Below, one piece after another: positions 1-26,889 of a DNA stretch of 26,889 bases. Both the position numbers and the translations under genes were made by a program. The notes below the pieces were generated by a model. The model ran no database searches and had not been told where the DNA came from. It worked only from the letters and a program-made list of their open reading frames with translations. The first letter of the stretch is position 1, and every line of letters begins with the position of its first letter. This DNA comes from a virus, in IMG/VR virus record IMGVR_UViG_3300031576_000252, positions 1 to 26,889 of that record; one strand, given 5' to 3'.

Positions 1-2057
1 TGAGCATTGGTGGCACTACTACGAGGCGACCCGGAGTTCGGCGCAAGACCCCCCTCGCCTGTCAAGAGGGCCTGCGTCTGCATGGCCTGCATCTGCTCCA
101 TCTCCCAGAGCGCCTTCTGCTGGTTGGCGTAGAAGTCGATCCGGGCCTGGGCGTCCGGCGGCAGCATCTTGTAGTGGTCGCTCTTCTGGAAGTCGCGGCT
201 GACTTGCAGGTGGATGTAGTGATCGTCGAACTCCTCGGGCATCACGAGCTCGCCTCCGATCGCTCGGTCGATCGCGATTTCGGCGTTCCTCTCGTCGGCC
301 TCGGTCTGATCGAGCCACTTGCGAGGGTCCGCGAGCTCGAGCATCTCGAAGAAGCGCGCGCGCTCCCGCGCATCGGCCATGTCGATCGCGCCGTATTGGA
401 CGAGATCGAGGACGAACTGCTGACGCGCCGCCCGGGAGTAGGGGATCGAGGAGCCGCTCTCGACGCGCACGTCGGTCGCGTCCTTCAAGTCCGCCCCGCG
501 GAACCAGAGCGCCTCTATCATGCGCCCCTTCCCGACGACCTTCACCATCCGCTCCTCGGGGTAGTGCTTGCTCGAAAGAACGAGCATCCGCTTCCCCAGG
601 CGCTCGACCGCGCGCTCGAGCCTCCGGGAGATCGGCGCGAAGAAGCCCTGGTCCTGCTCCTGCAGAAGCGCGAGGGCGACACCCGAACGAACGTTCTGCG
701 GCGCCCTCGCCGTCGTGACCTCGTGGATCGAGACCGTCTCCCTCATTCCCTGGATGGTGCGATCCTCCGTCTCTCCAAAACCGACCGGCAGCGGCATCGG
801 CGTCATGGGCTCCGGCCTCATCCCGCCTGTCGGACTGAACTCGATCTTCTCGCCGGGGACGTCGTTGTAGGCGTTCTTGTGGACCTCGGCCCCCCGCGGC
901 AGGAGCAACTTCGGCTTGAGACAGAGGTTCACGTGCTCGACTTGCTGGGAGCGAAGGCGGTTCAACCTCCGCTGCTGCGAGAGGATGGATTCGGCGAGCC
1001 CGATTCCCCAGAAGTTTCCCGGTCTCGGCAAGTAGCTGACGTAGATGAGCTCGGAGTAGTCGCACTCGCCCTTCGAGAGAATCTTGTCCCCGGCGACGAG
1101 GGCGTGAAGGCCCTCCGGGTAATCCTCGCTCTCGGGCTCGTGGTACTCCCGGAGGATGAGGGTATCGTCGCTTTCGAGAGGCGAGACCTGCGGAGGACCC
1201 GAGGCGGGTGTGCGCCGGGGCGCGATCGAGGCCGCGGCGAGGCCGAGGATGCGGGCCTCCCAATCCTCCGCATCCTGGCGCGTCACCACCTTCTCGGGGG
1301 CGATCTCCTCCACCACGGCGCCGTAGCGGCCGCGCAAGTAGGCCCGAGAGCGCCGGTAGGTTTGGACCCACCAGGGGCAGTAGGAGCGGTCGATCACGCC
1401 CGCCGGGGCCGTCGCGTAGGACGGCACGTAAATCTCGAACGGCGAGACCGGATCGACCCGGATCGCGCCCGGGCGGTACTCGATGTAGGAACCGGCGGCC
1501 GCCAAGCGCGCCTTCTCCGACGCCGAGATCGTCGCGGGAAGAGGCTCTCCGCTGCTGGGATCTATGTAGATCCTCGATTTCTCCCCCGAAACGGGATCGA
1601 ACGTCACCTTGAAGAAGGCCGTCCCGCAGATCACCGCCCACCGAACGACCTCTTCGATCTTCGCGGGGATGTCGAGCTCCTGCCAGACGGCGGTGAGCAC
1701 CTTGTCCGCCACCCGCGCGGCCGCTCGGTCCTCGATGTCGGAGGTCGCGGGCGCGACGTAGGCCCGCGGCTGGTGCTCGATCAGGCTGCTGACCGCCCTC
1801 TGCACGAAAGGCTGGACCAGGTTCACGATCTCGAACTGGATGTGGTCCGGGATCGACTGGAGGCGCCTTCCCCCCAGGTCCCAATAGAGATACTGGTAGC
1901 CCATATAGAAGGCGAGGCTGATGTAGTTCTTCCGATCGACCCGCTCCTTAACGGAGACGATCGCCCGCAGGTCCGCGCGGCTGTTCACCCGGGCGATGAT
2001 CTTCGCGTCCTGCTCGCCCTGACCGAGCCAGGACTGATTCGCGGTGCGGACGTCCAT
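1..2057 (-). CDS. Phage portal protein (3' end cut by window edge)
   Basis: The frame is open from an ATG at 2057 to the left edge, giving 685 codons with no stop. The portal forms the dodecameric ring at one capsid vertex through which DNA is packaged and ejected, and to which the terminase docks. The product is acidic/basic mixed with no membrane segments. It carries portal-like blocks: an N-terminal helical region with FYMGYQY near residue 45, a central region with NFWGIGLAESIL and QQRRLNRLRSQQVEH, and a long helical C-terminal part rich in Q and M (MEQMQAMQTQ). The length is close to P22-type portals (about 700 aa). The start is chosen because the stop of the upstream gene overlaps it (TGATG at 2059-2055), implying coupled translation. 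It follows the terminase genes, the usual order. Identification rests on my recognition of the family and on context. Confidence 0.85.
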   Translation of the reverse strand, partial: MDVRTANQSWLGQGEQDAKIIARVNSRADLRAIVSVKERVDRKNYISLAFYMGYQYLYWDLGGRRLQSIPDHIQFEIVNLVQPFVQRAVSSLIEHQPRAYVAPATSDIEDRAAARVADKVLTAVWQELDIPAKIEEVVRWAVICGTAFFKVTFDPVSGEKSRIYIDPSSGEPLPATISASEKARLAAAGSYIEYRPGAIRVDPVSPFEIYVPSYATAPAGVIDRSYCPWWVQTYRRSRAYLRGRYGAVVEEIAPEKVVTRQDAEDWEARILGLAAASIAPRRTPASGPPQVSPLESDDTLILREYHEPESEDYPEGLHALVAGDKILSKGECDYSELIYVSYLPRPGNFWGIGLAESILSQQRRLNRLRSQQVEHVNLCLKPKLLLPRGAEVHKNAYNDVPGEKIEFSPTGGMRPEPMTPMPLPVGFGETEDRTIQGMRETVSIHEVTTARAPQNVRSGVALALLQEQDQGFFAPISRRLERAVERLGKRMLVLSSKHYPEERMVKVVGKGRMIEALWFRGADLKDATDVRVESGSSIPYSRAARQQFVLDLVQYGAIDMADARERARFFEMLELADPRKWLDQTEADERNAEIAIDRAIGGELVMPEEFDDHYIHLQVSRDFQKSDHYKMLPPDAQARIDFYANQQKALWEMEQMQAMQTQALLTGEGGLAPNSGSPRSSATNA

Positions 2058-8932: not shown

Positions 8933-8934
8933 GC

Positions 8935-9855: not shown

Positions 9856-9877
9856 CCTCCAACAGAAAGGCGAGACC

Positions 9878-11511: not shown

Positions 11512-11526
11512 GTCAGAAGCGCGTCA

Positions 11527-12211: not shown

Positions 12212-12579
12212 GCCTTGCCCTCCCGGATCTCGGCCGCGCGGATGCGGATCTTCGTACCGATCTCGGCATGGCAGAATCGACCACCCATCGTTCTACAAGT
12301 CGGATTACACAGATGGTTCTGACACACGAGGTATGCCTCCTCCATCGCCGCCACTGCCGCCTCGCGGGCGATCTCACGCAACGCCGAGCGCATCCGGCCA
12401 AGCACCTCGTCGGCGAGCCTGAGGCAACGAGTCTCTTCGTCGAGATCTTCATAGGGTCCAAGTGCGCGGGAGGGAATCTCTCGGCCTCGTTCCCGACAGG
12501 CGGCGAGATAGACCTCGTGGCATTGGGCCGGAGTCAAAGCGTGCGCGCGGGCGATCTCTTCGATGCGCTTCGCGTTCAT
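12208..12579 (-). CDS. Hypothetical helical protein, 123 aa
   Basis: The product starts MNAKRIEEIARAHALTPAQC and is almost entirely helical and charged (RLADEVLGRMRSALREIAREAAVAAMEEAY). A Cys cluster follows near residues 86-103 (VCQNHLCNPTCR, FCH). The longer frame to 13002 is a shadow. 4-nt overlaps lie on both sides. The family is unknown. Confidence 0.65.
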   Translation of the reverse strand: MNAKRIEEIARAHALTPAQCHEVYLAACRERGREIPSRALGPYEDLDEETRCLRLADEVLGRMRSALREIAREAAVAAMEEAYLVCQNHLCNPTCRTMGGRFCHAEIGTKIRIRAAEIREGKA

Positions 12580-12782
12580 CTCGTCGCTTCCTCCAGGCGC
12601 TCGTACGTCGCCTCGAACAGATCCGGCTTGATCGGCCAGGTGTCGTTCGTCACAGGATCCCGGAGAACCCAATCGCCCGCCTCGGCCCGGACGCGGCCGT
12701 GGGCGGTAGTGACCAACTCGGCGACCTCGACACGACGGGCAAGGACGACGATCGGCTTCTTCCGGACGCGGATCTCGTTCAC
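12576..12782 (-). CDS. PGDYG-type small phage protein, 68 aa
   Basis: The product starts VNEIRVRKKPIVVLA and contains AEAGDWVLRD followed by IKPDLFEATYE. This is the pattern of a widespread small phage/bacterial protein (RKKPVxVEA ... PGDWI ... PDIFxxTYE) with no established function. The GTG at 12782 is preceded by AAGGAGG and overlaps the previous stop (GTGA). Confidence 0.7.
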   Translation of the reverse strand: MNEIRVRKKPIVVLARRVEVAELVTTAHGRVRAEAGDWVLRDPVTNDTWPIKPDLFEATYERLEEATR

Positions 12783-13030
12783 GGTGCCTCCTTCGCCAAA
12801 AGCCACTTGCCGCGGTCCAGGGATTCGATCGCCGCCAGAGAGACGGCTGCGACCTGCACCAGTTCCTTCCGGTACTCCCCGAGTGCACTCTCAAGCACCG
12901 CCTTGGCCGCCTCGCCAGTTTCCTCATGGAGAATAGCGAGCCACTTGTAGGGATGGTGATTCTGCTCGCCCCACTTGGCGTCTTGACGGTGCCGTTCGTC
13001 AACCACGGCTTTCGTGAGTTCCTCGTTCAC
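12779..13030 (-). CDS. MazG-like NTP pyrophosphohydrolase-type protein, 83 aa
   Basis: The pattern DERHRQDAKWGEQ, then EETGE (E36-E40) and a second helix YRKELVQVAAVSLAAIESL, matches small phage MazG-like all-alpha NTP pyrophosphatases. These hydrolyse (d)NTPs to NMPs and may adjust nucleotide pools or (p)ppGpp-related signals. The second metal motif E-x-x-D is not clear here (E-x-x-x-V), so activity is uncertain. The GTG at 13030 has AAGGAGG and overlaps the previous stop. The C-terminus KEAP encodes the next gene's ribosome binding site. Confidence 0.7.
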   Translation of the reverse strand: MNEELTKAVVDERHRQDAKWGEQNHHPYKWLAILHEETGEAAKAVLESALGEYRKELVQVAAVSLAAIESLDRGKWLLAKEAP

Positions 13031-13251
13031 GTTGCCTCCTTGCTTTTCCGGAACGTCTTGGCCTTGGGACAGTCCGCAAAATGGTTGAGGAGGTGGGCCG
13101 TGTACGGAGCGCGGTTTCCCGTCCTCAGTATCACCCACCAGATCGGTTCGCCGCAACCTCGGCAAGCCCCCGCGTCCCCGACGAGGCGAAGGAAGAGGGC
13201 GATGTTGGACCGCAGCCACGCGGCGTCGTCGGGTCGAACGATGTCGCTCAC
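13027..13251 (-). CDS. Zinc-binding small phage protein, 74 aa
   Basis: The product starts VSDIVRPDDAAWLRSNI and has CRGCGEPIWWV followed ~25 residues later by HFADCPKAKTFRK. This C-x-x-C / H-x4-C layout occurs in many phage and actinobacterial proteins that probably form a zinc ribbon. The GTG at 13251 is preceded by AAGGAGG and overlaps the previous stop. The function is not established. Confidence 0.7.
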   Translation of the reverse strand: MSDIVRPDDAAWLRSNIALFLRLVGDAGACRGCGEPIWWVILRTGNRAPYTAHLLNHFADCPKAKTFRKSKEAT

Positions 13252-13499
13252 GGGGCCTCCTTCCTGATCGCGGCGCGGAGGAGGGCCGCACCTTCCGGTT
13301 GCGAGAATCGCTCGCTCGACCCATCGAGCACCTTCCCGCACGCTTCCACCGCCTCGTCGAGGGCGGTGCGGAACTTGCGCTGAAAGATTGTGCGTAAACG
13401 CGCGAGCGATTCTTCGGCTGTCGGGACGGCGTTCCAATCAAGACAACCCTGTGCCGCAGCGTCACATGCGATCCTGTCCAGTTCCTCGCGGAGGTTCAT
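13248..13499 (-). CDS. Hypothetical helical protein, 83 aa
   Basis: The product starts MNLREELDRIACDAAAQGC and is composed of charged helices (RTALDEAVEACGKVL, GAALLRAAIRKEAP). No family is recognised. 4-nt overlaps lie on both sides. The last codons AAG GAG GCC double as the ribosome binding site of the next gene. Confidence 0.6.
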   Translation of the reverse strand: MNLREELDRIACDAAAQGCLDWNAVPTAEESLARLRTIFQRKFRTALDEAVEACGKVLDGSSERFSQPEGAALLRAAIRKEAP

Positions 13500-13726
13500 G
13501 TCGGCTCCGTCTTCTTCGGAGGCCACGGCTCCTTCTCGATCGCAGTGAGTGATCGCTGGACACACTCCTTTATGACCATGGCTATTGTACAGCGGTGCCT
13601 CGACGCTTCGTTGCGCAACCGCACGCACAAAGCGCCGACGAAGTTTATGTGAATGGTCGTAGTTTCCGATTCAGGCGCAGCGTCCTTCCACGGATTGTAC
13701 CCTCGGAATCTCTTGTTCTGTGTCAT
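13496..13726 (-). CDS. Ribbon-helix-helix (Arc/CopG-like) DNA-binding protein, 76 aa
   Basis: A strand TTTIHINF is followed by two helices (LRNEASRHR and TIAMVIKECVQRSL), the ribbon-helix-helix plan of Arc/CopG-type regulators that bind DNA as dimers through the strand. The N-terminal 20 residues are a basic arm (MTQNKRFRGYNPWK). GGAG precedes the ATG at 13726, and 4-nt overlaps flank the gene. It may regulate this operon or another phage promoter; no target is visible. Confidence 0.7.
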   Translation of the reverse strand: MTQNKRFRGYNPWKDAAPESETTTIHINFVGALCVRLRNEASRHRCTIAMVIKECVQRSLTAIEKEPWPPKKTEPT

Positions 13727-14052
13727 GTGTTCTCCTTCTCGATCTCGGCGGCGATCACGAAACCGCATCGTTCCTCCTTTTGCCGATATTCATCACGCGG
13801 TACTGAACATCGCCAGCAATAGTGCGCCCGCGCGATCTCCACGCACCGACGGCGCTCCGTGGAGGTCGCCTTCATCGAGTCTCTCACCTCCTCCAGCGTC
13901 ACGGTGAGGCCAGCGCGCGCCTCTGCTTCCCCGCGACCGATACAGCGGACGCAGACTGACACCGGCTCCAACCTCGTGCCATCGCTGTAGCCCTTCCGGT
14001 AGGCGTCCTCGGGGCTCATCCCTTTCCACGGGCTTGTTTCGATGTCGGTCAT
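13723..14052 (-). CDS. Hypothetical protein with two Cys-x-x-Cys motifs, 109 aa
   Basis: The product starts MTDIETSPWKGMSPEDAYRKG. C-x-x-C motifs occur at VCVRCIGRGEAEA and HYCWRCSVPRDEY, about 45 residues apart and flanking a charged helix (EEVRDSMKATSTERRRC). A single zinc site is plausible. GGAGG precedes the ATG, and both ends overlap neighbours by 4 nt. The family is not recognised. Confidence 0.65.
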   Translation of the reverse strand: MTDIETSPWKGMSPEDAYRKGYSDGTRLEPVSVCVRCIGRGEAEARAGLTVTLEEVRDSMKATSTERRRCVEIARAHYCWRCSVPRDEYRQKEERCGFVIAAEIEKENT

Positions 14053-14405
14053 CGTTTACCTCCGTGCTTCGACTTCATGTGCCGAGCAAGGTTCGGAAAC
14101 GTGCGGTGACACCTCGGACAGACCCCGCGTTCGATTCTCCGCTCGATCGCCATGCGCTTGTTCCGCTCGACCACGACCTCTCCCTCGGCGCGTGCGAGAT
14201 CCGCCGTGCGCGATGCGAGTTGCTTTCGCAAGCGCTCAACCTCTGGCTCCGTGTAAGTCATTGCGTGCCCATTCGGGCAGAAGAACGAGTCCGTACCGTG
14301 AGCGCGCAGGTACTTATTGTAATCCAGCGGCATTGCGAACATTATGCCGCAGACGATACAGACATCGCTCGATAGCGTCACAGACTCGTTGAACGTCGTC
14401 GTCAT
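14049..14405 (-). CDS. C2H2 zinc-finger phage protein, 118 aa
   Basis: The N-terminal zinc-ribbon-like part has CIVCG (C16, C19) and CPNGH (C43). A charged coiled-coil follows (about residues 53-90). The C-terminus is a C-x2-C-x9-H-x4-H finger (CPRCHRTFPNLARHMKSKH). This ribbon + coil + terminal finger layout recurs in phages and suggests a DNA-binding dimer. AAGGAG precedes the ATG at 14405, with 4-nt overlaps on both sides. Confidence 0.72.
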   Translation of the reverse strand: MTTTFNESVTLSSDVCIVCGIMFAMPLDYNKYLRAHGTDSFFCPNGHAMTYTEPEVERLRKQLASRTADLARAEGEVVVERNKRMAIERRIERGVCPRCHRTFPNLARHMKSKHGGKR

Positions 14406-14701
14406 CGGTTCTCCTTTGCCGCCGCGAGCGCCTGCTTTGCCTGCCATTTGTGGAACTGCGCAAATCCCTTCTTCGAGTGCTTGGCGCCATAGGTTCCAGT
14501 CATCCCAGCGCACACCCGCTGGCACTCATGTTCATCACACGTCGGATTTCCGCAGACAAGAGAGGACGCGACGGAACACTCTTTTCTCGCTTGCGCTCCG
14601 CACCAGCATTTCTGCTTGCCATGCAGATCGCACACGCCACGTGCGGTGGCATCGCGTCGGCATGGCGAAGTCCAGGCCATACGGAAACCGCACGCAGTCA
14701 T
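14402..14701 (-). CDS. Cys/His-rich phage protein, 99 aa
   Basis: The first 65 residues carry at least eleven Cys/His in a regular layout (CRRD, VCDLH, CWCGAQARKEC, VCGNPTCDEHEC), consistent with two or three zinc sites. The C-terminal third is a basic helix (KHSKKGFAQFHKWQAKQAL). This type recurs in phage early operons with no established function. AAGGAG is upstream, and 4-nt overlaps lie on both sides. Confidence 0.68.
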   Translation of the reverse strand: MTACGFRMAWTSPCRRDATARGVCDLHGKQKCWCGAQARKECSVASSLVCGNPTCDEHECQRVCAGMTGTYGAKHSKKGFAQFHKWQAKQALAAAKENR

Positions 14702-15048
14702 TCTTCTCGTCTCCTTCCTCGTTCCTCCGCCGCCGCGAGGGCGGCTTGGGCATTCAGACTGGCGGCCTCGCCCTGGTCAAGCCTCCAGTCGGCCAAGTCT
14801 GCCTCTGGAATCTGCTTCACGAGATCCGTGAGAGCAGCATCGCACTGTCGTAGCACCCCCTCCAGTCTTCCGACGCGGGCGAGGAGGTAGCCGAGGTCAT
14901 CCCGCGCTGAAACGCACAAGGCGATTTCTTCGGGAGATGCGTGTGTCGGGCCAGAGTCGGGATGTTGGAGGATCATGGAACGAATCGGGATCGGATCCCA
15001 CTTGGAGGCCGCCTCCAGCCGCGCACGGATCTCGTCGAGACGAGTCAT
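14698..15048 (-). CDS. Helical phage protein of the 'MxRLDEIRARLEAA' type, 116 aa
   Basis: The start MTRLDEIRARLEAASKWDP is typical of a widespread small phage/bacterial hypothetical family. The rest has ARDDLGYLLARVGRLEGVL and a C-terminal coiled-coil rich in Ala and Glu. GAGG precedes the ATG at 15048. The longer frame to 15087 is unnecessary. The function is unknown. Confidence 0.68.
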   Translation of the reverse strand: MTRLDEIRARLEAASKWDPIPIRSMILQHPDSGPTHASPEEIALCVSARDDLGYLLARVGRLEGVLRQCDAALTDLVKQIPEADLADWRLDQGEAASLNAQAALAAAEERGRRREE

Positions 15049-15188
15049 GCTTCCTCCTCGCGTGGGACTCGTCCACCTCCTGCGCACGTCTCACACTCCC
15101 TCCACAACAACAGGGGCACCCCGGCCTTCGACCAACCCTCGTATTCGACCTCCCCCACGCCGTTGCAGTCGGGACACTCTCGCGTCAT
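15045..15188 (-). CDS. CxxCxGxG zinc microprotein, 47 aa
   Basis: A very short gene with two DnaJ-type knuckles, CPDCNGVGEV and CETCAGGGRV, separated by about 26 residues, like the 11527-11736 product. The ATG at 15188 lies downstream of an AAAGGAG site at roughly 12 nt. A competing ATG at 15195 is better spaced but opens a short out-of-frame ORF. Its stop overlaps the next start by 4 nt, which supports it. Confidence 0.65.
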   Translation of the reverse strand: MTRECPDCNGVGEVEYEGWSKAGVPLLLWRECETCAGGGRVPREEEA

Positions 15189-15206
15189 CGGTCATTCCGT
15201 CTCCTT

Positions 15207-15647
15207 TCAGAATGGGCAATCGTCGAGCTCGGGATCCGGCGGCGAAGGCTCGGCGGAAGGACGCGGCGGTCCTTCGATTGCCTGGTAGCCGAAGTTGTTT
15301 TCGGGTCCTCCCGTTGGCTGCAAGTAATGCTTCCCGTTGTACTCGTGGCGTGCGACCGTCACATGAGCAATCGCGCCGCGAACGTCGTCACCCTTCACGT
15401 CGCAGGGATCGTCGTCGGCGAGGCGCAGGAGGGCGCCGAGTTTCTTGCGGGCGATCCAGCCGGCTTTTGCGCTCAAGGTGAGGCGATCCATGCAGAGGCG
15501 GGCGCCCTTCAAAGGCCCGGCCTCGATCACCAAGTGGAGCACCATCTGGTAGTCGTGCTCCTCCGTGAACTTCTCGTCGACACTTTGGACGCGCGCGAGG
15601 TACGTCCCATCGGGAACGTCAGCTCGAACGGGACCGAAGAGGGGCAT
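15207..15647 (-). CDS. DUF669-like / SSB-like protein with acidic -DDCPF tip, 146 aa
   Basis: The product has the DUF669/OB-like layout: VPDGTYLARVQSVDEKF, then MVLHLVIEAGPLKGARLCMDRL, then ARKKLGALLRLADDD, then GAIAHVTVARHEYNGKHYLQP. A Pro-rich linker leads to the C-terminal tip LDDCPF. The last residues resemble the SSB C-terminal peptide (DDxPF), which recruits many repair partners in bacteria. Binding of single-stranded DNA during annealase-mediated recombination is inferred. The start overlaps the annealase stop by one base (TGATG), implying coupling. Confidence 0.72.
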   Translation of the reverse strand: MPLFGPVRADVPDGTYLARVQSVDEKFTEEHDYQMVLHLVIEAGPLKGARLCMDRLTLSAKAGWIARKKLGALLRLADDDPCDVKGDDVRGAIAHVTVARHEYNGKHYLQPTGGPENNFGYQAIEGPPRPSAEPSPPDPELDDCPF

Positions 15648-16556: not shown

Positions 16557-17180
16557 CTACTTCCACCGAACCGAAACCACGCGACGGACCCTGACCGCGA
16601 AGGAGAGGTCCTCGCCCGTGTCCTTCCGAACGACCGCCCCTTCGGACGTGAGGGCGATCGCGGCAGCGAGCTTCTCCTTGTCGACCTTCCACGAGACCAC
16701 CTGCTCCTTCAAGTCCTGCGGGATCTTCGTCTCGTCGAGGACGTCGATCGCCTGTGCCGAGCTCGTGCTGATGCGGATTCCCCGCGTGGCTCCCTCGAAG
16801 CGGTCGACCTGTAGGATCTCGGCCGCGATCCGGGCGCACGCGGTCAGCCGTTCGACGACGCGATCGTAGGAGCGGGCGACCTCTTGGAGATGCTTGACCT
16901 GGGCGCGAAGGGCGGCGCCGCGGGCGTCGCACTCGTCATGTACGGCGACGTAGGCGTCGACCTTGTTCTTGAGAAGCGCGCCGCTCGCAACTAGGCGCTC
17001 GGCGAGAGCGACGTTCGGGTTCTGGATGTGAGCGCCCGTCGGGTCGAGCGTCTCGGGCTCGGCTTCAAGGAGCGCGACGAGGTCGCGCACTTCCTTCGTG
17101 AGCTCGATGAGGGTCGGACCTTCGACGCGGGCGGGCAAGCCCGCTCCGGGTCCATGTTTCACCACGGATGGTTTCAGCAT
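16557..17180 (-). CDS. Siphovirus Gp157-like protein, 207 aa
   Basis: AAGGAG precedes the ATG at 17180. The product has the Gp157 layout: an N-terminal helix (TLIELTKEVRDLVALLE), a long coiled-coil (KVDAYVAVHDECDARGAALR... VKHLQEVARSYDRVVERL), then a beta part (GIRISTSSAQAIDVLDE), IPQDL and VDKEKLAAAI. Gp157 proteins accompany phage annealases; an older proposal links them to phage-resistance interference, without proof. It is translated just upstream of the annealase (10-nt gap) in the same operon. Confidence 0.8.
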   Translation of the reverse strand: MLKPSVVKHGPGAGLPARVEGPTLIELTKEVRDLVALLEAEPETLDPTGAHIQNPNVALAERLVASGALLKNKVDAYVAVHDECDARGAALRAQVKHLQEVARSYDRVVERLTACARIAAEILQVDRFEGATRGIRISTSSAQAIDVLDETKIPQDLKEQVVSWKVDKEKLAAAIALTSEGAVVRKDTGEDLSFAVRVRRVVSVRWK

Positions 17181-17466: not shown

Positions 17467-17481
17467 TTTTGCCGGAGTCAA
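17454..17481 (-). promoter_or_regulatory. Sigma70-like promoter for the leftward early operon
   Basis: On the minus strand TTGACT (17481-17476, 5 of 6 matches) and TAGCAT (17459-17454, 4 of 6) are 16 bp apart. The Xre ATG follows about 23 bp after the -10. The -35 overlaps the stop codon of gene 17478-17810. Confidence 0.6.
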
Positions 17482-17810
17482 GCGATTTGTTGGGAGGGCT
17501 GCCGGACCACCCCGACGAGGGGGCGTGGGGAGAAATGGGTGCGGGTGGGGCCGCTCAGCGTCTCCCGCAGGTAGGCCACGTGAACCCCGATCTGCGAGAG
17601 GTCCCCATCCTGGGTGGAGTACGTGTAGAGCCCCCGCGGCTCGTCGATCTTCACGAGGTTTGCTTCCACGATCGTCGCCAAGGTGCCGTCCGGCTTCAGT
17701 AGCAGGAGAACGAGGGTGCTCCCCACGGTGCGGGCTCGTCCGAGTTCGAGGTGGAGGACCCGCTCGGTCTCATTCTGCAGGAAGCTTTCGTAGGGGAAGG
17801 GAAGGCTCAT
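17478..17810 (-). CDS. Hypothetical beta-rich protein, 110 aa, after the giant gene
   Basis: The gene starts 10 bp after the end of the 2858-aa gene, in the same direction. The product begins MSLPFPYESFLQNETERV. It has alternating strands (STLVLLLLKPDGTLATIV, EPRGLYTYSTQDGDLSQIGVHVAYLRET) that resemble immunoglobulin-like N-terminal domains of phage structural proteins such as BppU-type proteins. No signature is decisive. A virion or tail accessory role is inferred from context. Confidence 0.6.
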   Translation of the reverse strand: MSLPFPYESFLQNETERVLHLELGRARTVGSTLVLLLLKPDGTLATIVEANLVKIDEPRGLYTYSTQDGDLSQIGVHVAYLRETLSGPTRTHFSPRPLVGVVRQPSQQIA

Positions 17811-17820: not shown

Positions 17821-20800
17821 CTATCGCCTCTCGCTCACGATGTCCATGAAGTGCATCGCGGCGGCGGCTTCCGCAGGGCTCTCGACACCCTGCATGTACC
17901 ACCGCTCCGCCCATCCCTTGAGGATCCCCCGCTCGTACATCGTCGCGTGGGGCCAGTAGATCGCAGCTTCTCTCCACCGCTCCGCACGAGGGCTGGCGGC
18001 CTGGATCCGCTTGAGGGCCCCCGTGAGATTGCGCGCCCCGAGCATCTGGGCGACGTCGGCCGGCTGGATCTGCACTCCGTGCTTCGCGTACGCCGGAGGA
18101 GCGGCCTGGGCGGCCCCGTGCTTGATCTCCTCCCGGCCCGCTTCGAGCTCGCGATTCGTGGCGGCCTGCGAGGCGATCATCCGGAGCACCGCGGCGCGCC
18201 GCTCCTCGCCCGCGACGGGCAAACCCGGAAGCGGCGGATGTCGCCGCTTCGCTTCGGCTTCCGGCAGGGTGCGAACCCCGTGGGGGAACTGGAAGAGGAA
18301 CTCACCGTCCGGCGTGCGCTCGGCGTCCATCTGCCGCATGACATCGACGACGTAGCGCCCTCCGAAGGCGCCCATGTTGTTCGCCCAGAAGTCGTCCCAC
18401 TTCGCCTCGTTCCCCTCGAGGTACTTGGCGATACCCGCGTCCGTGAGCTGCGTGATGAGCGTCAGGGGAAGGGAGTCTGCATCGGGAATCGGGATCCGCC
18501 AGAGCCGCACCCACCACGGCAGGCTCGCGAGCCGCTCCTGAAAGCTCGGCATGAGAGAGACGCCGGGGAGCTCCGCGGGCCGCGTCCCGACCTGGTAGCC
18601 GATGGTCGAGGGCGTCTTACTCCATTCCGGGAGAAGCCTTCCGATCGCTCCCATGCGGTCGAGCATCCCGGTATGCCGCAGGACCTCCTCCGTCGCGACG
18701 ATCGCGAAGAGGCCGCGCACCAAGGCCCGGGCGGCGTAGAGGTTGGCGTTCTTCGTCCCCTTCCGTGCGAGCTCGAGGCCGAAATTGACGCTCTCGCGGA
18801 TCCGCCGGAGCGTCTGCGTCGCGATCCGAAACTGCGTGTTCTCGAGGAAAAGGAGCAACCGCCCGAACTTCGTGGTGAACACGCCGGGCATCGTCGCCAG
18901 CGTGAAATGAAAGTTGACCTGTCCATTGAGGAAGGTGGCGAGCTCGCGGTGAGCTTCGGAGCCGAGAGGCGGCGCTCCCGGCGTCAGGCCGGCCGCATAC
19001 TCCGTCGCGACGCGGTTCAGGGCCTCTCCCCATCGGAAGAACTTGAAGCCAAACGCGCCGATCGCGGCACCCAGAAGCGGTCGCCCGTAGGCCGCACCGA
19101 TGGCCGCCCCTGCGACGGTGGGCGCGAAAGTCTTCCCCATCCTGGAGAGAAGGGTCCCCGGTCGACCGTACGAGGTCGGATCCCACCCCCGTGACCAGAT
19201 CAGCGCGCCCGATCGCGCGGCGTGCCGGCGCCACGCCCGCTGCTTCCCGCGCGGCAAGAGGTCCGCCATCCCGACCAGGGCCCTCGAGTAACCCTCGAGG
19301 GAAGGTTGGATCCCGACTTCACCGAAGAGAGAGGTCCACCCGAGAAGGACGTTGGTCATCCCCGATCGCGGATGCTGCAACATCGCCTGCCGGAGCCAGG
19401 TCCCGAAGGGACCGATGAGGACACGATCGACCACGCGCTCGGTCTGCGTCTGCCCTCGACCCTTGAGCTCCTGTTCGGTGAGCGACATCGCCTCCTGGAA
19501 CCGCTCGCGGCCCCACATGTCGTCGACGATCCCGCCGACACGATGCCAGGCCTCGCGCAGCTCCCGCCGGCGCCACACCTCCGTCGTCTGGCCGGTCTTG
19601 TCGTTCGCCTGGCGAACCCGGACCCCGACCACATGCCCAGTCGGGTCTTTCACCCACGATTTCCCCGGCTCGAGGATGTAGAGAAGCCCGCCTCGAAGCA
19701 GGCCGGTCTCCGGGTCGACCGTCCGGTTCTGTACAGTATCGAGCTCACGGAAGGAGTAGGGCTTCCTCCATTTCCCCAGGAAGTAGTCGCGCACCTTGTC
19801 CATGGTCACGCCGTAGGCGATCGCGCGCTCCGTCTCGGGCGTGTAGACGTTCAGGATCTCATCGAGGTCCAGGATGTAGCCGGTTTTCCCCTCGCGGTGC
19901 TGGACGAAACGGTTGAACCGCTCCCGCGGCCGGATCATCCGAAGCAGGACGCTCATCCGGTCGTAGGCTCCGGCGATCGAGCCGTCTCCGCCCCAGATGT
20001 GGGTCAAGTAGTCCTTAAAACCCCATTGGTCCGCCTCTCGCCAGAAGGCCTCGGCCGCCTGCTCGGCGGCGGCCCGCACCTTCGACCATCGCTGCCAATT
20101 CTTCGTGTGCCTCGCCTTCGCGGCGCGCGCAAGCTGGCGCTCGGCGTACTTGAGTTCGTTCTCGATGTGCCCCCACCGGCTCCGGCGGTAGTGCTTGAAG
20201 AGACGGCGGCGGTATCGGTCGAACCACTCTCTCGCGCGGCGCACCGTCTCGACGTGCTCTGGATAGCGCGCCGCGAGGACCTGCTCGACGGGCTGCGCGA
20301 GCTCGGCCGCGGTGAGGCCCTTGCGAATCTCGTCGAGGTAGCGCGGGTCGGCGTCTCGAAGCGCCTGCTCGACGCTCATCTTCGGATCGCGGTCGAGATG
20401 CGCGGCGACGAGGGTCTGTAGTGTCGGGTCCTTGAAGCGCCACGGCCGCAACGGATCTCGGCGAGCGACTTGCGCGAGGATGCCCGCGCGAGGACGGAAG
20501 GGTTGCCCGCGGGCCTTCTGGCGCAGGAACCGGAAGACTTCCGCCGCCCGCATCCCGTAGGTGGGTCCGAGGATTTTCGCGCGTTGGCGGGCGAGCCGCA
20601 GTTGGAAACCGATGCCGGCCGCTGCGAGCATCCGCGTAAACTTCCGCCCGAAGAGCGCGTCGCGTTCCGAAAAGAGCTCGTGCCAGATCGCCAGACCCTT
20701 GAGGCGCCGCAAGGGTCCGGCGTCGGCGTAGGCGCGCATCCGAGCGGAGGTCTCGGCGCCGAACACCGGAATCGCGCGCACCATCTTTCTGACGACCGAG

Positions 20801-23800
20801 GGGACCAACCCGAGCATGCCTGGGAAGGCGAAGAGCGTCGTGGAGGGATGCTCCTCCGTCGGGAGCTTCCCCCACGAGAAACCCTCGCGACGAACTGCGT
20901 GCTTCCGCTTCGCCTCTTCGATGCGATCGAGAAGAGTCCCGACCTCGGCGTCGATCTCGCCCTTCCCCCTGAACTCGTCTGCGACTTTCCCCAGGAAGTC
21001 CCACACCCGGCCACCGGTCCAGAAGACGCCGTGCAGGACGTCGGACGTCGTGAAGCCCGCGCGGTAACCCTCCGCCGGCCGCTGCCCTCGAGCTTCCTGA
21101 TCGAGCTCCCGCTGCATCTCGGAAGGATTCGAGATGTCGAAGCGCAGAAGGTCGCGCGCCGTCCGGTCGTCGGAGACGCCGGCGACCAGAGCCTTCATAA
21201 ATTGCAACTTCTTTCCGACTCGCCGCGAGAGGACACTCTCGAGGGGCGTGTTCGGATCGAAGAGGAACGTGAAGTGGCTCTCGCTTTTCGACCCAAGCCG
21301 GTGACCGCGCCCGATTGCCTGCTCGGTCATCATCCCCGTCCACGGCAGCGTCGTCGCGACGAAGTACCGCGGGTGTTTCCCCTCGGTGTCGTGGAACGAG
21401 AGGCCGGCCCCGGCCTTCGCGAGAGTGGCGACCAGGATCTTCTTGCGGTTCGCCTGGAACTCGTCGGCGTCCTGCATGGCCTGGGTGTTCGAGACGTCGC
21501 CGTGGACTTGGGCGACAACGCCGGGGCCGCCGAGGGCCTTCACGATCTTCGAGATAGAGGACGTCTCCATCCGTGCGAGCTCGGCGAAGAGCTCGTCGAG
21601 AATCTCGGGGTGGTGAAGACGGCGGCGCACCGCCTCGCTGCCCTCGATCTCGGTCTTGTATTCCGTTAGAACCGCCACGGAGAAGCCCTTTTCCCTCGCG
21701 TTGGTGGCGATCCGCAGCGCCGCTTCGGCCTTCCCGACTTCGAGCGCGCGACGGGTGGCGAGGACCCGCATCGCCGAGAGGAACATCTTGTTCCTGGGAT
21801 TCGCTCCGGCGATCTCCTTCGTGAAGGCTTCCTCGACGGCCGCCACCAGTCGCATGGCGGTCCCGCTCATCTGCGCGCGCTCGAGCCGGTAGTGGAACTC
21901 GATGGGAATTGAAACCCGCTTCGTGTCGATCATCACGGGTTCGCCCCATAGATCGGCGCCACTCGGGCTGATCGACATGAGAGGCTCGACCTCGGTCTTC
22001 TCCGGGTTCGTCCAGCGGATCCGTCCTCGGAGGAACTCGTTCTCGGTGGGGAAAACGATCTTCGCTCCCGCCTTGAGCTCTCCCTCTGCGGGCTTGCGCG
22101 TAGGCGGGATCCCGCGCTCGCTCATCGCCCCCTTCTCCAGCATCTCCTTGCGGGCCTTCAGCAGGGCCCGGACATCTCCCGTCGCGACAAGCTCCCCGCT
22201 TCGGGGGTCGAGCCGGGCTCCGTGCGTCACGAGCCAATTCCAGGAGCCGATCCCCTCCCACAAGCCGAGCGTCTCGAGGTACTGCATCTCGATACTCGAC
22301 TGGAACGGCGTCGCCGACAGGTAGAGCTGGTTCTCGCCGAGCGCCTGGAAGGACCGCCCGACCTTCGCCTGCAGAGAGTCCTCGTTCTTCAACGCCTGGC
22401 TCTCGTCGGCGACGAAGAAGTCGACCTTCCCGCTCTTCGCGCGGAACTCCGCGAGGCGGGCCTCCTGCCGCATGAAGGCGTAGGTGTTCACGCGCCAGCC
22501 GGGACCGATGCCGGGGCGCACCTTCACGCCGAAGGCGCCGGCGACGGTGCGCCACGTGCGCGCGAGATCCTTGTTCGGGACCAGAATCATGGCGCTCTTC
22601 GCGTCGAGCTCCTGCATCGCCGCCACGGCGATCCAGGTCTTCCCAGAGCCGACCTGATGGAAGAGCCCGTACCCGCGCAGCGGCTTCGGCTTGCGGGTCA
22701 GAGCCTCGACAACGTAGCCGACCTCCTCGAGCTCGGCCTCGATCGCGCTCGGGTCGATGCCGGCGCGTTCCGCCTCGAGGCGCAGCACCCGCGCGGTGGG
22801 CTCGCTTACTTTCGCGGGGGGGTTGGGGCGCTTCGCGGTCGTTTTGTAGTGGAGGAGCTCGGGCTCGATTCGCCGGCGAGGTGCCTCGCCAGCCTGCGAA
22901 TCGGGGGCAGCAGCCGCCGCAGCGCGCCGCGCAACTCGATTTCGTCGGCGTCCGTCAGCCGCTCGCTTTCGGGGATCTTCGGGCTCATGTCCAGGAGGCT
23001 CTCCTTGTCCCACCCCAGCTCCGGGCCGGGGTCCCGGTTCTGCAGGGCCTGGAGCTTCGCCGGGTCGGGGGGCTTTAGGGGCTTTTTCACCGCGTGCCTC
23101 CGTAGGAATCTCGTACTCCGGACGCCTTTCTGCAAGGTCCCGTAGGGCGGCTTCGAGGCGCTCCTCCTTCTCCGCCCGGGCGAGGCCGCGGTGGATGTCC
23201 CTCTCGCGCTCTCCGCCGATCGCTTCCCCGAAGTCCTCGAGGTAGCGGTGCGCCGCGTCCCAGACGCGGTAGAGCGAGCCGCGGATCCGCTCCCCGAGAG
23301 CCCCGAGGATCTTCTTGGCCCATGCCGAAAACTTGGTCAGACCCCGCTCGAGGTAGGCGGTACCGAGTCGCATCGCCTTCGCCCAAAGCTCCGGGTCGAG
23401 GGCCTGGAACATCCCCGCTCGCCCTGCCTGCTCGCGGAACTCGCGTTCGAGCCGCTCCAGCTCATCATCCGAAACGGCGAACTTCTTCTTGTCGGGAGGC
23501 TTCTTCGGCGGAGGGGCGGCGCCGGCCGCCGCCGCCTTCTCCATCGGCGTCTCGGTCGCGGATCCTCCCCCCTGCGAGGCGAGCGCGAGCCGAGTCGCCT
23601 GCTCGAGCGGGCCCTCGAGCAGCGTGACCAGAATCTCACCCTCCACGATCCTTTCCTGCGGGTAGGCCTTTCGCGCGGCCTTCGCATACCGATCCAAGAA
23701 CCCCGCTCGATCCGCGCGCGCGAGGCCGCGCAGCGCCATGACGGGCCCATTCCCCGCAATCACAAAGAGGGCGCCCTTCTCCCCGACCTCGCCGCTGGCG

Positions 23801-26397
23801 TCCCGCCACACGACAGGCTTGCCCGCGAAGGGGACAGGGGAAGGCTCGACGAGGAACTCCGGATCCTTCGCCGCGGCCTCCCGGATCGCCGCGACCTGCT
23901 CCTTCGAGCGTTCCGAGGTTCGCTCCCGCGCCTGGAAGAGCTCGTGGGGATAGCCCGGGACTTCCTCTCCTTCCGGAGTATGGGAGGCGATGAGGGAACC
24001 GAGCGTGACCTTGACCGTTTTCCCGTGGTAGGGCCGGTTCGCGTTGTCGCGAAGGGTGACTCCCGGCGAGCTCTCCAGAATCTCGGGCTCCACCGTCGGC
24101 GCCTTCGCCTTGACCTCTCGCGCGCGCTGGCCCGGAACGAGAATCTCCTGCCCCGGGAACTTCGGATGAGCGATCCGAAGCTCCCCCTTCTCGCTGACGC
24201 CGACCACTCGCCCGGTGACGGTCGTTCCCTTCGCCGTCTTCGCCTCGACCCATCGGTTCGGCCCCTTGGGGACGCCGAGGATGTGAGCTGCGGCCGCGGC
24301 CGCCTTTCCGGCGGGCGTCGACACTTTCGGGGCCGCACCCGTGACGATCGGAGCGCGGGGAGGCGCAGCAGACGGGGGAGCCGCGAGTTCGCGCTCGAGC
24401 CCCTTGCGGTAGCTCTCGAGCACCAGGCGCCGGGTTTCCGGCAAGGGCCCCGCGAGCATCCCCTTCACCCCCTCGAGCTTCGCCTGCGTCTCTGCCCTGG
24501 CCTTCGCCTCCGCCTCGAGTCTGGCTCGCTCGACGCGTTCCGCTTCCGGTGCCTCGACGGGCTTCGGGGGACGCGGTTGGACGGGACCCTTTTCCGCCTG
24601 TCGGGCCGCGATCCGGTGGAGGATCTTGCGAAGGCGCTCCTCCCGACTCTCTCCGGTGAGGCGTAGGCGTTCCGCAGAAGGAAGTCGACCTGCCAGGACC
24701 TCCGGAGCGGCCGGCAGCGCGCCCATGACGGCGGAGAGCTCCCCCGCGGTCAACGGGCTGTCCGTGGGCTCAAGCAGCGCCGGATGACCCTCCGGAAGGC
24801 CCTTCCGGGTGTCGAACCGACGCCTCGCAGCCTCGTAGATGCCCTCCAGAACCGCGTCGACGACGGTCGCCTCGGGTGGTTCAGCCGAAGGCCCCCTCGT
24901 GCCACCCGGAGGCGTACCACCGGGCCCCGGGCGATAGATCTGCCCGACTCCCCAGCGACCAGCGCTCCCGCGGAACCAGGCGTACGTGCGGTAGGATCGC
25001 ATCCCCTCGAGAAGCCCCGCGAGGGCGAAGACGCCCATCTGCGGGGCGTACTCCGCCAGGAACATCTTCAGGCGCTCGGGGGAGGGGTCCTCGTACAAGT
25101 CCTTGATGACGCCAGGGTTGGAGACGATCGGAGCCACAGCGCCCATTGCCAAGCCAGCGGTCGCCATTCCCTTGATCGGCCCGTACCGGCTCGCGAGGAA
25201 CTTCTGCAGCGGCGGCCCCAGGCCCTCGAAGACCGCGAACAGGGTCGCATTCGCCGTGGCCTCCCCCGTCTTGAGCTCCGTAAGGGGGATCCCGAGGACC
25301 TCGTTTGCGTACTTCTGGGGCGCAGAGAGCGGGCTCGCGAGGGCGGCACCCACACCAGCGATCGCGCCCGCCGTTGCACGTGAAACAATCCCTGGGGTAG
25401 GCCCGGGGATGCGTATTTTTTTCCCCGTCAAAACGCCCCCAAGCAGCTGGGCGGGATAGCCGAAGCCACCCTTCGTGAGTGCTTTCGCTCCCAGGCGCGC
25501 GGGCCCGAACAGGACCTTCGGGCCGGGGGCACCTGGCGTTACGAATCCAGCGGTCTCGGCGGCCGATTGGAGGGCTAGCGACGCGGCCGTGCGATAGGGG
25601 CTTTCGACGGGGCCCTGCTGTTCCGGCGCGATCGGCAGAAGCCCCGCGAAGAAACCGCGCACCGCTCCGAAGAAAGCCGCGCGCCTGGTCGCGAGCGCGG
25701 TGGCGCTTCTCTCCTCCGGCGTCTCCTCTCGTCCTTGTCGTGCAGCCTCCTCTTGCGCGTAGAAGCCGTACCAGTCGTGGGTCTGCAGGTAGGTCCCGAA
25801 CTCGTCGTCGAAGAGCCGGTCGCCTCTGGGTCCAGGGCGCTCCTCGAACATCCGCGCTTCTTCGAGCGGAGGAACGGGCTTCCCCGCGCGCTGGAAGTGA
25901 GCCTGATAGTCCTCGAGGAGGTGGGCCCCCAACGGTCCCCCCACGATTCCAGGGAGCTTCTCCTCTGGGATCCGGTAGACCGGCATCCACTCGAGGTCCG
26001 TGCGCTGCGTGTAGAAGAAGGCGTTCGGGGCCTCGGCCTGCTCCCGATCGACCGTCTCCTTCGCGAAGCCCTGAAGGTCCTGGTAGACCTCGACGCCGGT
26101 GAGGCGCTGGGACGGATCGACCGTCTCGTCGCCCTTCTGGACGCCCCATACGAACCGGCGTTCTGGGAGAGCTCCGTAGCGCGCGCCCCAGGCGTCGACC
26201 TCCTCCTTCAGGTGTCGCTCGCGGCCGCGCGCCCCGTAGGACTCGAGCCTGCGGAAGATGTCCCTCAAGTCTTCGCCGGCGGCCGCGTAGGGATCCTGCG
26301 CCGGCCCTGCAAACGCTTGCGCGGCGGCCTCGAGCTGCGCGAGATGGACGTCCTTGAGGGCTCGTGCGAGGTCGGGGCGAGCGGGATCGTGGGGCAT
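17821..26397 (-). CDS. Giant polyvalent protein with SF2 helicase core, 2858 aa
   Basis: One uninterrupted frame. Approximate domains: 1-230 charged, soluble; 230-480 Ala/Gly-rich hydrophobic, perhaps membrane-inserting; 720-760 small beta domain; 790-930 DdrB/ParB-like (LIASHTPEG, YPHELFQARERTSERS, then AGNGPVMAL where GNGR is expected); 1000-1050 motif common in large phage proteins (TAYLERGLTKFSAWAKKILGA); 1225-1760 superfamily 2 helicase with VGSGKT (about 1247), DESQ (about 1331), LSATPF (about 1360), VATLAKAGAGLS (about 1655) and QAIGRGHR (about 1692), a SNF2/strawberry-notch-like set; 1760-2858 long helical region with another Gly/Ala hydrophobic segment near 2420-2465. This is the architecture of polyvalent proteins, which are packaged and thought to be delivered with DNA. 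ATG at 26397 overlaps the upstream stop (TGATG). Confidence 0.85.
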   Translation of the reverse strand: MPHDPARPDLARALKDVHLAQLEAAAQAFAGPAQDPYAAAGEDLRDIFRRLESYGARGRERHLKEEVDAWGARYGALPERRFVWGVQKGDETVDPSQRLTGVEVYQDLQGFAKETVDREQAEAPNAFFYTQRTDLEWMPVYRIPEEKLPGIVGGPLGAHLLEDYQAHFQRAGKPVPPLEEARMFEERPGPRGDRLFDDEFGTYLQTHDWYGFYAQEEAARQGREETPEERSATALATRRAAFFGAVRGFFAGLLPIAPEQQGPVESPYRTAASLALQSAAETAGFVTPGAPGPKVLFGPARLGAKALTKGGFGYPAQLLGGVLTGKKIRIPGPTPGIVSRATAGAIAGVGAALASPLSAPQKYANEVLGIPLTELKTGEATANATLFAVFEGLGPPLQKFLASRYGPIKGMATAGLAMGAVAPIVSNPGVIKDLYEDPSPERLKMFLAEYAPQMGVFALAGLLEGMRSYRTYAWFRGSAGRWGVGQIYRPGPGGTPPGGTRGPSAEPPEATVVDAVLEGIYEAARRRFDTRKGLPEGHPALLEPTDSPLTAGELSAVMGALPAAPEVLAGRLPSAERLRLTGESREERLRKILHRIAARQAEKGPVQPRPPKPVEAPEAERVERARLEAEAKARAETQAKLEGVKGMLAGPLPETRRLVLESYRKGLERELAAPPSAAPPRAPIVTGAAPKVSTPAGKAAAAAAHILGVPKGPNRWVEAKTAKGTTVTGRVVGVSEKGELRIAHPKFPGQEILVPGQRAREVKAKAPTVEPEILESSPGVTLRDNANRPYHGKTVKVTLGSLIASHTPEGEEVPGYPHELFQARERTSERSKEQVAAIREAAAKDPEFLVEPSPVPFAGKPVVWRDASGEVGEKGALFVIAGNGPVMALRGLARADRAGFLDRYAKAARKAYPQERIVEGEILVTLLEGPLEQATRLALASQGGGSATETPMEKAAAAGAAPPPKKPPDKKKFAVSDDELERLEREFREQAGRAGMFQALDPELWAKAMRLGTAYLERGLTKFSAWAKKILGALGERIRGSLYRVWDAAHRYLEDFGEAIGGERERDIHRGLARAEKEERLEAALRDLAERRPEYEIPTEARGEKAPKAPRPGEAPGPAEPGPRPGAGVGQGEPPGHEPEDPRKRAADGRRRNRVARRAAAAAAPDSQAGEAPRRRIEPELLHYKTTAKRPNPPAKVSEPTARVLRLEAERAGIDPSAIEAELEEVGYVVEALTRKPKPLRGYGLFHQVGSGKTWIAVAAMQELDAKSAMILVPNKDLARTWRTVAGAFGVKVRPGIGPGWRVNTYAFMRQEARLAEFRAKSGKVDFFVADESQALKNEDSLQAKVGRSFQALGENQLYLSATPFQSSIEMQYLETLGLWEGIGSWNWLVTHGARLDPRSGELVATGDVRALLKARKEMLEKGAMSERGIPPTRKPAEGELKAGAKIVFPTENEFLRGRIRWTNPEKTEVEPLMSISPSGADLWGEPVMIDTKRVSIPIEFHYRLERAQMSGTAMRLVAAVEEAFTKEIAGANPRNKMFLSAMRVLATRRALEVGKAEAALRIATNAREKGFSVAVLTEYKTEIEGSEAVRRRLHHPEILDELFAELARMETSSISKIVKALGGPGVVAQVHGDVSNTQAMQDADEFQANRKKILVATLAKAGAGLSFHDTEGKHPRYFVATTLPWTGMMTEQAIGRGHRLGSKSESHFTFLFDPNTPLESVLSRRVGKKLQFMKALVAGVSDDRTARDLLRFDISNPSEMQRELDQEARGQRPAEGYRAGFTTSDVLHGVFWTGGRVWDFLGKVADEFRGKGEIDAEVGTLLDRIEEAKRKHAVRREGFSWGKLPTEEHPSTTLFAFPGMLGLVPSVVRKMVRAIPVFGAETSARMRAYADAGPLRRLKGLAIWHELFSERDALFGRKFTRMLAAAGIGFQLRLARQRAKILGPTYGMRAAEVFRFLRQKARGQPFRPRAGILAQVARRDPLRPWRFKDPTLQTLVAAHLDRDPKMSVEQALRDADPRYLDEIRKGLTAAELAQPVEQVLAARYPEHVETVRRAREWFDRYRRRLFKHYRRSRWGHIENELKYAERQLARAAKARHTKNWQRWSKVRAAAEQAAEAFWREADQWGFKDYLTHIWGGDGSIAGAYDRMSVLLRMIRPRERFNRFVQHREGKTGYILDLDEILNVYTPETERAIAYGVTMDKVRDYFLGKWRKPYSFRELDTVQNRTVDPETGLLRGGLLYILEPGKSWVKDPTGHVVGVRVRQANDKTGQTTEVWRRRELREAWHRVGGIVDDMWGRERFQEAMSLTEQELKGRGQTQTERVVDRVLIGPFGTWLRQAMLQHPRSGMTNVLLGWTSLFGEVGIQPSLEGYSRALVGMADLLPRGKQRAWRRHAARSGALIWSRGWDPTSYGRPGTLLSRMGKTFAPTVAGAAIGAAYGRPLLGAAIGAFGFKFFRWGEALNRVATEYAAGLTPGAPPLGSEAHRELATFLNGQVNFHFTLATMPGVFTTKFGRLLLFLENTQFRIATQTLRRIRESVNFGLELARKGTKNANLYAARALVRGLFAIVATEEVLRHTGMLDRMGAIGRLLPEWSKTPSTIGYQVGTRPAELPGVSLMPSFQERLASLPWWVRLWRIPIPDADSLPLTLITQLTDAGIAKYLEGNEAKWDDFWANNMGAFGGRYVVDVMRQMDAERTPDGEFLFQFPHGVRTLPEAEAKRRHPPLPGLPVAGEERRAAVLRMIASQAATNRELEAGREEIKHGAAQAAPPAYAKHGVQIQPADVAQMLGARNLTGALKRIQAASPRAERWREAAIYWPHATMYERGILKGWAERWYMQGVESPAEAAAAMHFMDIVSERR

Positions 26398-26889
26398 CAA
26401 CGCGGCATTCCCGGGCGACGTCGGTACGGTAGGAAGACGTCCCCGGTTTCTGCCGGCGCTGCACCCGTCGGTTGGGAAGCCGGTCCCGGCGCTGCACCCG
26501 TCGGTTGGGAGGCCGGTCCCGGCGGCGCCGTGGCGGAAGACGGCATTGCTCCCTTCCCGCTAGGTTCAAGGGAGCCCGCCGACGTCCCCGGAGTTTCTGG
26601 AAACTGACCGGATTGCTTGCTCGGGAAGGAGGGCGCGGCTCGGGTGACCCCCATCTCCATCGACAAGCGCGCCTTCGCGAAGTCGTAGATCTCGTCGAAG
26701 CTGGGATCGCGGCCCCGCAGGTTGTTCGCCACGGTGTCGAACAACTGCAGATTACGGATGAGACGAGTCTCCGCCTGCAGGAGAGCCTCGGGCTTCGGCA
26801 TCCCTCGCGCAGCCATCTCCGGCGTGTACCACATCCCCAGGCGCGCGGTCTCTTCGAGGAGCCGGATGTTCTGCTGCGCCATCTGGCCG
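26397..26889 (-). CDS. Hypothetical protein upstream of the giant gene (5' end possibly cut)
   Basis: The frame is open to the right edge. An ATG at 26882 could be the start (161 aa) or an internal Met. The N-terminal part is helical (RLLEETARLGMWYTP, IRNLQLFDTVANNL). The C-terminal 75 residues are Pro/Ala/Ser/Gly-rich and carry a duplicated 11-residue unit (GPASQPTGAAP), ending FLPYRRRPGMPR. The stop overlaps the giant gene's start. It may be a virion or scaffold-like accessory protein. Confidence 0.65.
   Translation of the reverse strand, partial: GQMAQQNIRLLEETARLGMWYTPEMAARGMPKPEALLQAETRLIRNLQLFDTVANNLRGRDPSFDEIYDFAKARLSMEMGVTRAAPSFPSKQSGQFPETPGTSAGSLEPSGKGAMPSSATAPPGPASQPTGAAPGPASQPTGAAPAETGDVFLPYRRRPGMPR
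26458..26523. repeat. 33-bp tandem repeat, two copies, in frame
   Basis: Copies at 26458-26490 and 26491-26523 differ at one base and encode a duplicated Pro/Ala/Gly linker unit. The 33-bp period keeps the reading frame. Confidence 0.9.

Follow-up and report, generated by a model that had tools for sequence, protein, structure and literature searches.

A giant protein with a helicase core and a module shared with a known virion protein: a probable ejection-type polyvalent protein of a podovirus-like phage

A giant protein of 2858 residues is probably a polyvalent, ejection-type internal virion protein of a podovirus; we put the probability of this reading at roughly 60%. It is encoded in the window analysed here, the entire IMG/VR record IMGVR_UViG_3300031576_000252 (26,889 bases, linear, probably a fragment). 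The virion role is favoured because the helical module at residues 947–1177 is common to the DarB-like/PLxRFG giants of podophages, one of which, JC1 gp69, is virion-proven. The protein further carries a helicase core with intact motifs and has no DNA methylase. The positions of the features are summarized in Table 1.

Table 1 Features of the window in the order of their window positions. Residues are numbered in the giant protein.
Feature	Window position	Strand	Residues or size	Basis or remark
P22/SU10-like portal protein	3..2057	−		Family and relative search
Gp157 / Mu Gam-like gene, downstream of the giant	16557..17180	−		Family match
110-aa ORF	17478..17810	−	110 aa	Begins 10 bases past the giant; no family match
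Giant ORF	17821..26397	−	2858 aa	Start ATG 26397, stop at 17821
Remote copy (candidate) of the podophage giants' C-terminal module	17989..19992	−	~2136–2803	hhalign versus controls and shuffles
C-terminal weakly hydrophobic segment	18679..18735	−	2555–2573	Hydropathy
E..NR..T signature of the C-terminal module	19003..19026	−	2458–2465	Motif, alignment
SF2/SNF2 (Strawberry-notch-like) helicase core	21127..22686	−	~1238–1757	Motifs I–VI intact; PHROG, profile
Helical module common to DarB-like/PLxRFG giants	22867..23559	−	947–1177	blastp, alignment, PHROG
Degenerate DdrB-like ParB domain	23659..24009	−	797–913	PF18763 E 7.5e-5, sub-threshold
N-terminal Gly/Ala-rich weakly hydrophobic arm	25009..25680	−	240–463	Hydropathy maxima 1.33–1.45
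Upstream partial ORF, truncated by the contig end	26397..26888	−	163 aa	No family match; stop overlaps the giant's ATG

The giant gene and its genomic setting

The giant ORF comprises 2858 sense codons, read from the ATG at 26397–26395 in a single coding frame, and its ATG overlaps the TGA of the upstream frame (TGATG). The G+C content at the three codon positions is 0.70/0.50/0.83, the period-3 signal keeps the same phase all along the stretch, and 300 shuffles of these 8,580 bases produced open runs of 554 codons at most. Thus, the ORF is neither a chance product nor several misread genes. The initial annotation had proposed one ORF here and had named several misread genes as the finding that would speak against it; its coordinates were right and the frame is single and coding throughout, on the minus strand, which had been left unstated.

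The whole protein gave no match in a tblastn search of 50,697 phage records, and neither did residues 1–790 or 1780–2858; the helicase segment alone matched the PLxRFG protein of Klebsiella phage ZX1. Peptide-pattern scans of viral and genome contigs confirmed no relative, and as only six peptides were used per scan, distant kin are easily missed in this way.

The phage, which comes from an environmental sample, looks short-tailed to judge from its podovirus-like terminase and portal. TerL and the portal are encoded on the same strand and contig as the giant, about 13 kb away; capsid or tail genes were not recognised on the contig, which is a fragment. The nearest relatives of the portal and the TerL N-terminal part are found in Arthrobacter phages (among them Jasmine and Adat), Cellulosimicrobium phage DS1, Microbacterium phage Shocker and Manatee Spring podoviruses. 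In Jasmine, DS1, Shocker, ctEqG8 and ctLwi270, which have related portals, a large protein (1803, 1783, 1743, 1106 and 1416 aa) closes the late genes or lies close to where they end. Only that of ctLwi270 matches the C-terminus of the podophage giants (8P, E 2.7e-10); the other four scored 19.7–22.8 against the C-terminal module, about like the controls. The actinophage relatives encode separate SNF2/RapA-like helicases in the early region.

TerL is distributed over two ORFs (window 2658–5026, minus strand), the ATPase part at 4178–5026 and the nuclease part at 2658–3404. A 228-aa ORF (3346–4032) without a PHROG or Pfam match lies between them. A group I intron within TerL was considered, and Rfam shows nothing there. 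Over about 10 kb (window 5200–15600) the period-3 signal is weak and changing, unlike in the rest of the contig, and the 10 minus-strand ORFs in this part gave no PHROG match better than E 0.009. In the upstream partial ORF, a 33-base tandem repeat (2.2 copies, window 26453–26524) encodes a Pro/Ala/Gly-rich repeat near the C-terminus. Downstream of the giant lie the 110-aa ORF, which gives the mere impression of a small structural beta domain, an HTH gene and the Gp157/Gam-like gene.

Helicase core, ParB-like domain and absence of a methylase

The helicase core contains the ordered motifs GSGKT (residue 1250), ILVPNKDL (1271), DESQ (1331), SATPF (1361), AVLTEYK (1575), GAGLSFHD (1663) and QAIGRGHRLG (1693), to which we presumptively assign the labels I–VI. 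A full SF2/SNF2-like motif set had been proposed before, and the motifs are indeed all present and in order. The protein was matched by phrog_62 (DNA helicase, E 2.8e-21) and, just below the cut-off, by the Pfam family Helicase_C_4 (Strawberry notch) at 1636–1757 (E 1.2e-6, 29 bits against 30.5). Pfam also returned weak ResIII, DEAD and SNF2 fragments. A profile of ZX1/Skulduggery-type, Thermus-plasmid and IMG/VR helicases, built without the window sequence, scored the giant protein at E 1.5e-53.

In a tree of 24 helicases, that of the giant pairs with the Thermus plasmid helicase (support 99/94) on long branches and probably belongs inside the group of ZX1, Skulduggery and IMG/VR helicases (94/95 for the wider group). 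The JC1/8P-type helicases and the separate actinophage helicases stand apart from this group. The nearest helicase is a lone 621-aa protein of a Thermus thermophilus plasmid (L004:4101-5966; 28.9% over 249 aa). The HDTxGKHPR type of helicase, otherwise seen in ZX1-like giants, is also carried by four stand-alone phage ORFs of 430–445 aa (L018, L019, L022 and L023). Since these small ORFs have the same helicase type, the helicase alone does not prove virion delivery. Homologs acting as intracellular replication helicases without virion association had been named beforehand as evidence against a delivered protein; this objection applies in part, to the helicase domain taken by itself, whose type the small stand-alone ORFs carry.

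The region preceding the helical module scored 23.3 bits with PF18763 (ddrB-ParB), against the Pfam cut-off of 27.6. A small profile of the ParB domains of Y7 and L048 matched the giant protein with an E value of 9.1e-8 in a one-sequence search. At the position of GNGR in Y7 and L048, the only other members seen, the domain reads GNGP. A conserved arginine is described in the pocket of the DdrB-like ParB domain (PMC5512222). We infer that this residue corresponds to the GNGR arginine, which is proline in the giant; the active-site arginine is then probably missing from the domain, whose role would be limited to binding. Of the DdrB/ParB-like domain claimed in the initial annotation, the match itself stands, at a score below the Pfam cut-off and with the GNGR arginine replaced by proline.

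The giant protein contains neither an NPP motif nor a Pfam methylase, neither PF02384 nor PF05175 matched on the contig, and an N6-adenine methylase with NPP(Y/F) was not seen. A methylase concealed in the C-terminal part or in another part of the contig was also considered, and none was found. The absence of a methylase beside the helicase, already suspected from the sequence, thus holds for both the ORF and the contig by Pfam and motif. All eight complete named helicase-bearing giants have an NPPF motif; the Pfam methylase check among the giants covered ZX1 alone (MTS, E 2.5e-7). The helicase profile matched 7 of 79 IMG/VR frames, with NPPF in four and not seen in three; all seven have open 5′ ends, so the three say nothing either way. 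According to Iyer et al., this methylase almost invariably occurs in fusion with the helicase (PMC5512222). Judged by its sequence, the giant is the reverse case, a helicase without a methylase.

Modules shared with podophage giants and weakly hydrophobic arms

By blastp, the helical module matched gp69 of Burkholderia phage JC1 (E 5.8e-10), and it was also detected in Skulduggery, ZX1, Y7, Mwe-JY07, 8P and Atu_ph08. The DarB-like family phrog_10089 matched at residues 942–1153 (E 2.2e-8). Our comparison set consisted of the giants of 14 phages, giving 15 protein entries as F116 has two. At E ≤ 0.05, blastp linked the giant protein to 8 of the 15 (JC1, Skulduggery, ZX1, Y7, Mwe-JY07, 8P, POI1126 and Atu_ph08), and the matches are collinear: the helical module (~950–1180), the helicase and then the C-terminal signature region (POI1126, E 0.036). 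The PLxRFG motif preceding the C-terminal module in 10 of the 15 entries is absent from the giant protein. Pseudomonas phage F116 (L012:4727-16088) has its giant split between two neighbouring genes, one of 2129 aa annotated as a methyltransferase and one of 1649 aa comprising ART, LPD23 and the C-terminal module.

JC1 gp69 was detected by mass spectrometry in CsCl-purified virions with 51 unique peptides and the second-highest score (PMC9144972), and DarB of P1 is packed in the phage head (PMC9024508). By analogy, the giant protein may likewise be associated with the virion. With a ParB-like domain, the helical module, an SNF2-like helicase and a putative C-terminal module, it combines two or more unrelated domains in the manner of polyvalent proteins. 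The earlier proposal of a polyvalent-type domain mix with a link to phage polyvalent proteins is borne out by the DarB-like PHROG match and by blastp to the giants.

Many giants, with or without helicase and methylase, have an E..NR..T signature in their C-terminal part and, after it, a short stretch of hydrophobic residues. The pattern E..NR..T..AAYR was found in at least 120 IMG/VR stretches, and the distance from signature to stop is 339–414 in 64 of 66 closed IMG/VR frames and 401 residues in the giant protein. The giant keeps E, N, R, T, A and A of the signature; invariance of these residues in the 48 alignment rows (Y and R being near-invariant) is by construction, because the rows were picked by the signature itself. 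The giant also has an R, a G and a D further upstream that at least 90% of the rows conserve.

We compared the last 813 residues with the C-terminal module of the podophage giants. A 69-sequence profile ranked them 4–5 among 4000 shuffles (HMMER), and hhalign gave a score of 32.3 against at most 27.2 for 150 shuffles. With the full giant protein, the hhalign score was 33.2, and none of 39 unrelated phage proteins exceeded 21.7. The hhalign probabilities are only 5–9%, and the missing PLxRFG motif likewise speaks against homology. The full-length C-terminal profile (−1.7 bits) and a short profile (rank 15 of 5001) were not significant in HMMER. In the JC1 giant, whose helicase is of another clade, the module is not clear (24.0). 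Taken together, homology of the C-terminus to the podophage giants' module appears moderately supported.

The sole C-terminal hit from Pfam, NCBIfam and PHROGs was a PHROG match of 29 residues (E 0.083). The initial annotation had left the C-terminal ~1100 residues unnamed, which agrees with Pfam, but hhalign tentatively places the podophage giants' module there. An AlphaFold2 run on 1098 residues as a single sequence gave no usable model (pLDDT 38.4). With 48 relatives, a model of 812 aa reached a confidence of 59.8, and about 80–90 over residues 2424–2566; the gain is suggestive only, since the two jobs covered different lengths. The aligned model had no match below E 0.001 in BFVD and PDB, and none of 293 chains reached a Z of 5 with VIA-align. 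Several top BFVD rows were pieces of polyvalent proteins, methylases or helicases, and row 12 was internal virion protein D (E 0.15); these rows are a hint only, as the alignment of the model was drawn from such proteins.

The four hydropathy maxima in the N-terminal arm (at residues 240, 336, 408 and 445) have, in descending order of value, means of 1.45, 1.38, 1.36 and 1.33. Towards the C-terminus, they are 1.28 at 2428 and 1.22 at 2555, the latter segment lying about 98 residues past the signature (about 90 in 8P and ctLwi270). Classical transmembrane helices were rejected, as the best 19-residue mean of the protein is 1.45 and none reaches 1.6. The Gly/Ala-rich hydrophobic stretches described in the initial annotation exist, but they are weak, and a classical membrane-spanning segment is not among them.

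The accepted ejection protein gp16 of T7 has best hydropathy means of 1.44 and 1.39, as weak as those of the giant. It is thought to enter the inner membrane via putative transmembrane regions 243–410 and 1119–1290, with its DNA-binding part in the cytoplasm (PMC8954989). The C-terminal profile of the giants picks up T7 gp16 at 1097–1131 with a score of 32.0, against at most 25.7 for 60 shuffles. Aligned with a profile of six gp16 C-termini, the module profile gave 98 columns, a probability of 39% and a score of 39.6, whereas 60 column shuffles reached at most 27.0. The resemblance (L002, L005-L017 and L030-L110 versus L151-L156) falls just before and into the second membrane region of gp16. 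It seems moderately supported and concerns a large group of known phages, not this window alone. The giant protein scored 17.1 directly against the gp16 profile, without a meaningful alignment, so its link to gp16 runs only via the giants' module, each step being moderate.

Interpretation and comparison with known systems

As a polyvalent ejection-type protein, the giant would be packed into the head during assembly and, on infection, exit through the portal ahead of or together with the DNA. The arms (240–463 and ~2424–2573) and the C-terminal module would then settle at or in the host inner membrane, with the part between the arms facing the cytoplasm. There, the SNF2-type ATPase may work as a translocase along the double-stranded phage DNA as it enters. 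It would strip off or block restriction enzymes, nucleoid proteins and other host proteins, and it might also assist in drawing the DNA into the cell. A bolder version, which we consider unlikely, takes the giant as a gp16-like subunit of a DNA ejectosome, with an SNF2-type translocase for double-stranded DNA acquired in its cytoplasmic hub. It would then be a virion-borne motor for genome import, held in the host inner membrane by arms to either side of the motor.

The HTH and Gp157/Gam-like neighbours look early, and the giant, whose stop is followed after 10 bases by the next ORF, may be co-transcribed with them. These neighbours give the strongest reason to consider an early role inside the cell, in which a fused replication or recombination helicase is made after infection along with these genes and has no place in the virion. 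Such a role would also fit the stand-alone phage ORFs with the same helicase type and the separate early-region helicases of the actinophage relatives, but the latter belong to a different clade. The size of the giant, its putative C-terminal module and the late-gene position of the large proteins in relatives argue for the virion instead, as does the 947–1177 module shared with giants that include a virion-proven member; we regard a purely intracellular helicase as unlikely. Points that weigh against the ejection-type reading are the missing PLxRFG motif, the failure of the giant to match gp16 directly, the lone Thermus plasmid protein as nearest relative of the helicase, the C-terminal module that is not clear in JC1, and the control-like scores of four of the five large late-gene proteins. 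A DarB-type antirestriction protein minus its methylase, protecting DNA only by occupying and sweeping it and taking no part in an ejection channel, would account for the modules in common with DarB-like giants, and P1 DarB protects against type I restriction (PMC5512222). The model published there, however, requires the methylase and the ATPase together, and the gp16-like hydrophobic layout would be left unexplained, which makes this alternative quite doubtful. Decay is very improbable: the lost ParB arginine, the TerL split over two frames and the weak coding signal over 5.2–15.6 kb could be taken as signs that a polyvalent protein is decaying, or has been domesticated by the host, within a defective prophage, but 8.6 kb are free of stops, with a strong codon-position signal and all helicase motifs intact.

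If the bolder version is true, podophage giants of the polyvalent kind would in general be ejection proteins in which enzymes were inserted between or before membrane arms. The giant bears on how podophage DNA is transferred across the envelope and on what giant internal proteins do. Because the helicase lacks a methylase, the motor is separated here from the modification step, and a role of the motor alone in DNA entry or protection can be asked about. Should the resemblance between the module and gp16 hold, polyvalent proteins would be seen as components of the ejection machine and no longer as a mere collection of effectors. In the open literature, we found no paper linking polyvalent giants with gp16, which is not proof that there is none.

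Among known systems, the polyvalent proteins of Iyer et al. 2017 (PMC5512222) likewise combine a DdrB-like ParB domain and a SWI2/SNF2 ATPase in one phage polypeptide, whereas the giant has the Arg-to-Pro change in ParB, no adenine methylase and no Pfam LPD36. With the DarB-like/PLxRFG giants (ZX1 and Lastavirus, Skulduggery, JC1 and Bcep22-like phages, 8P), it has the giant size and the helical module in common, as well as the ZX1/Skulduggery-type helicase with HDTxGKHxR and an E..NR..T region at about equal distance from the end. In contrast to them, it is without methylase, lytic transglycosylase, LPD39 and PLxRFG motif, and most of its length is below blast range. The large proteins of Jasmine, Shocker, DS1, ctEqG8 and ctLwi270 occupy an equivalent position after the structural genes in phages with a related portal and/or TerL, but they are shorter, at 1106–1803 aa, and have no helicase match. 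Compared with T7 gp16 (internal virion protein D), the giant shows no direct match and no transglycosylase, and the account of gp16 in PMC8954989 describes no helicase in that protein. Both proteins nevertheless have two weakly hydrophobic regions, one towards each end, and gp16 at ~1080–1180 resembles the module shared by the podophage giants.
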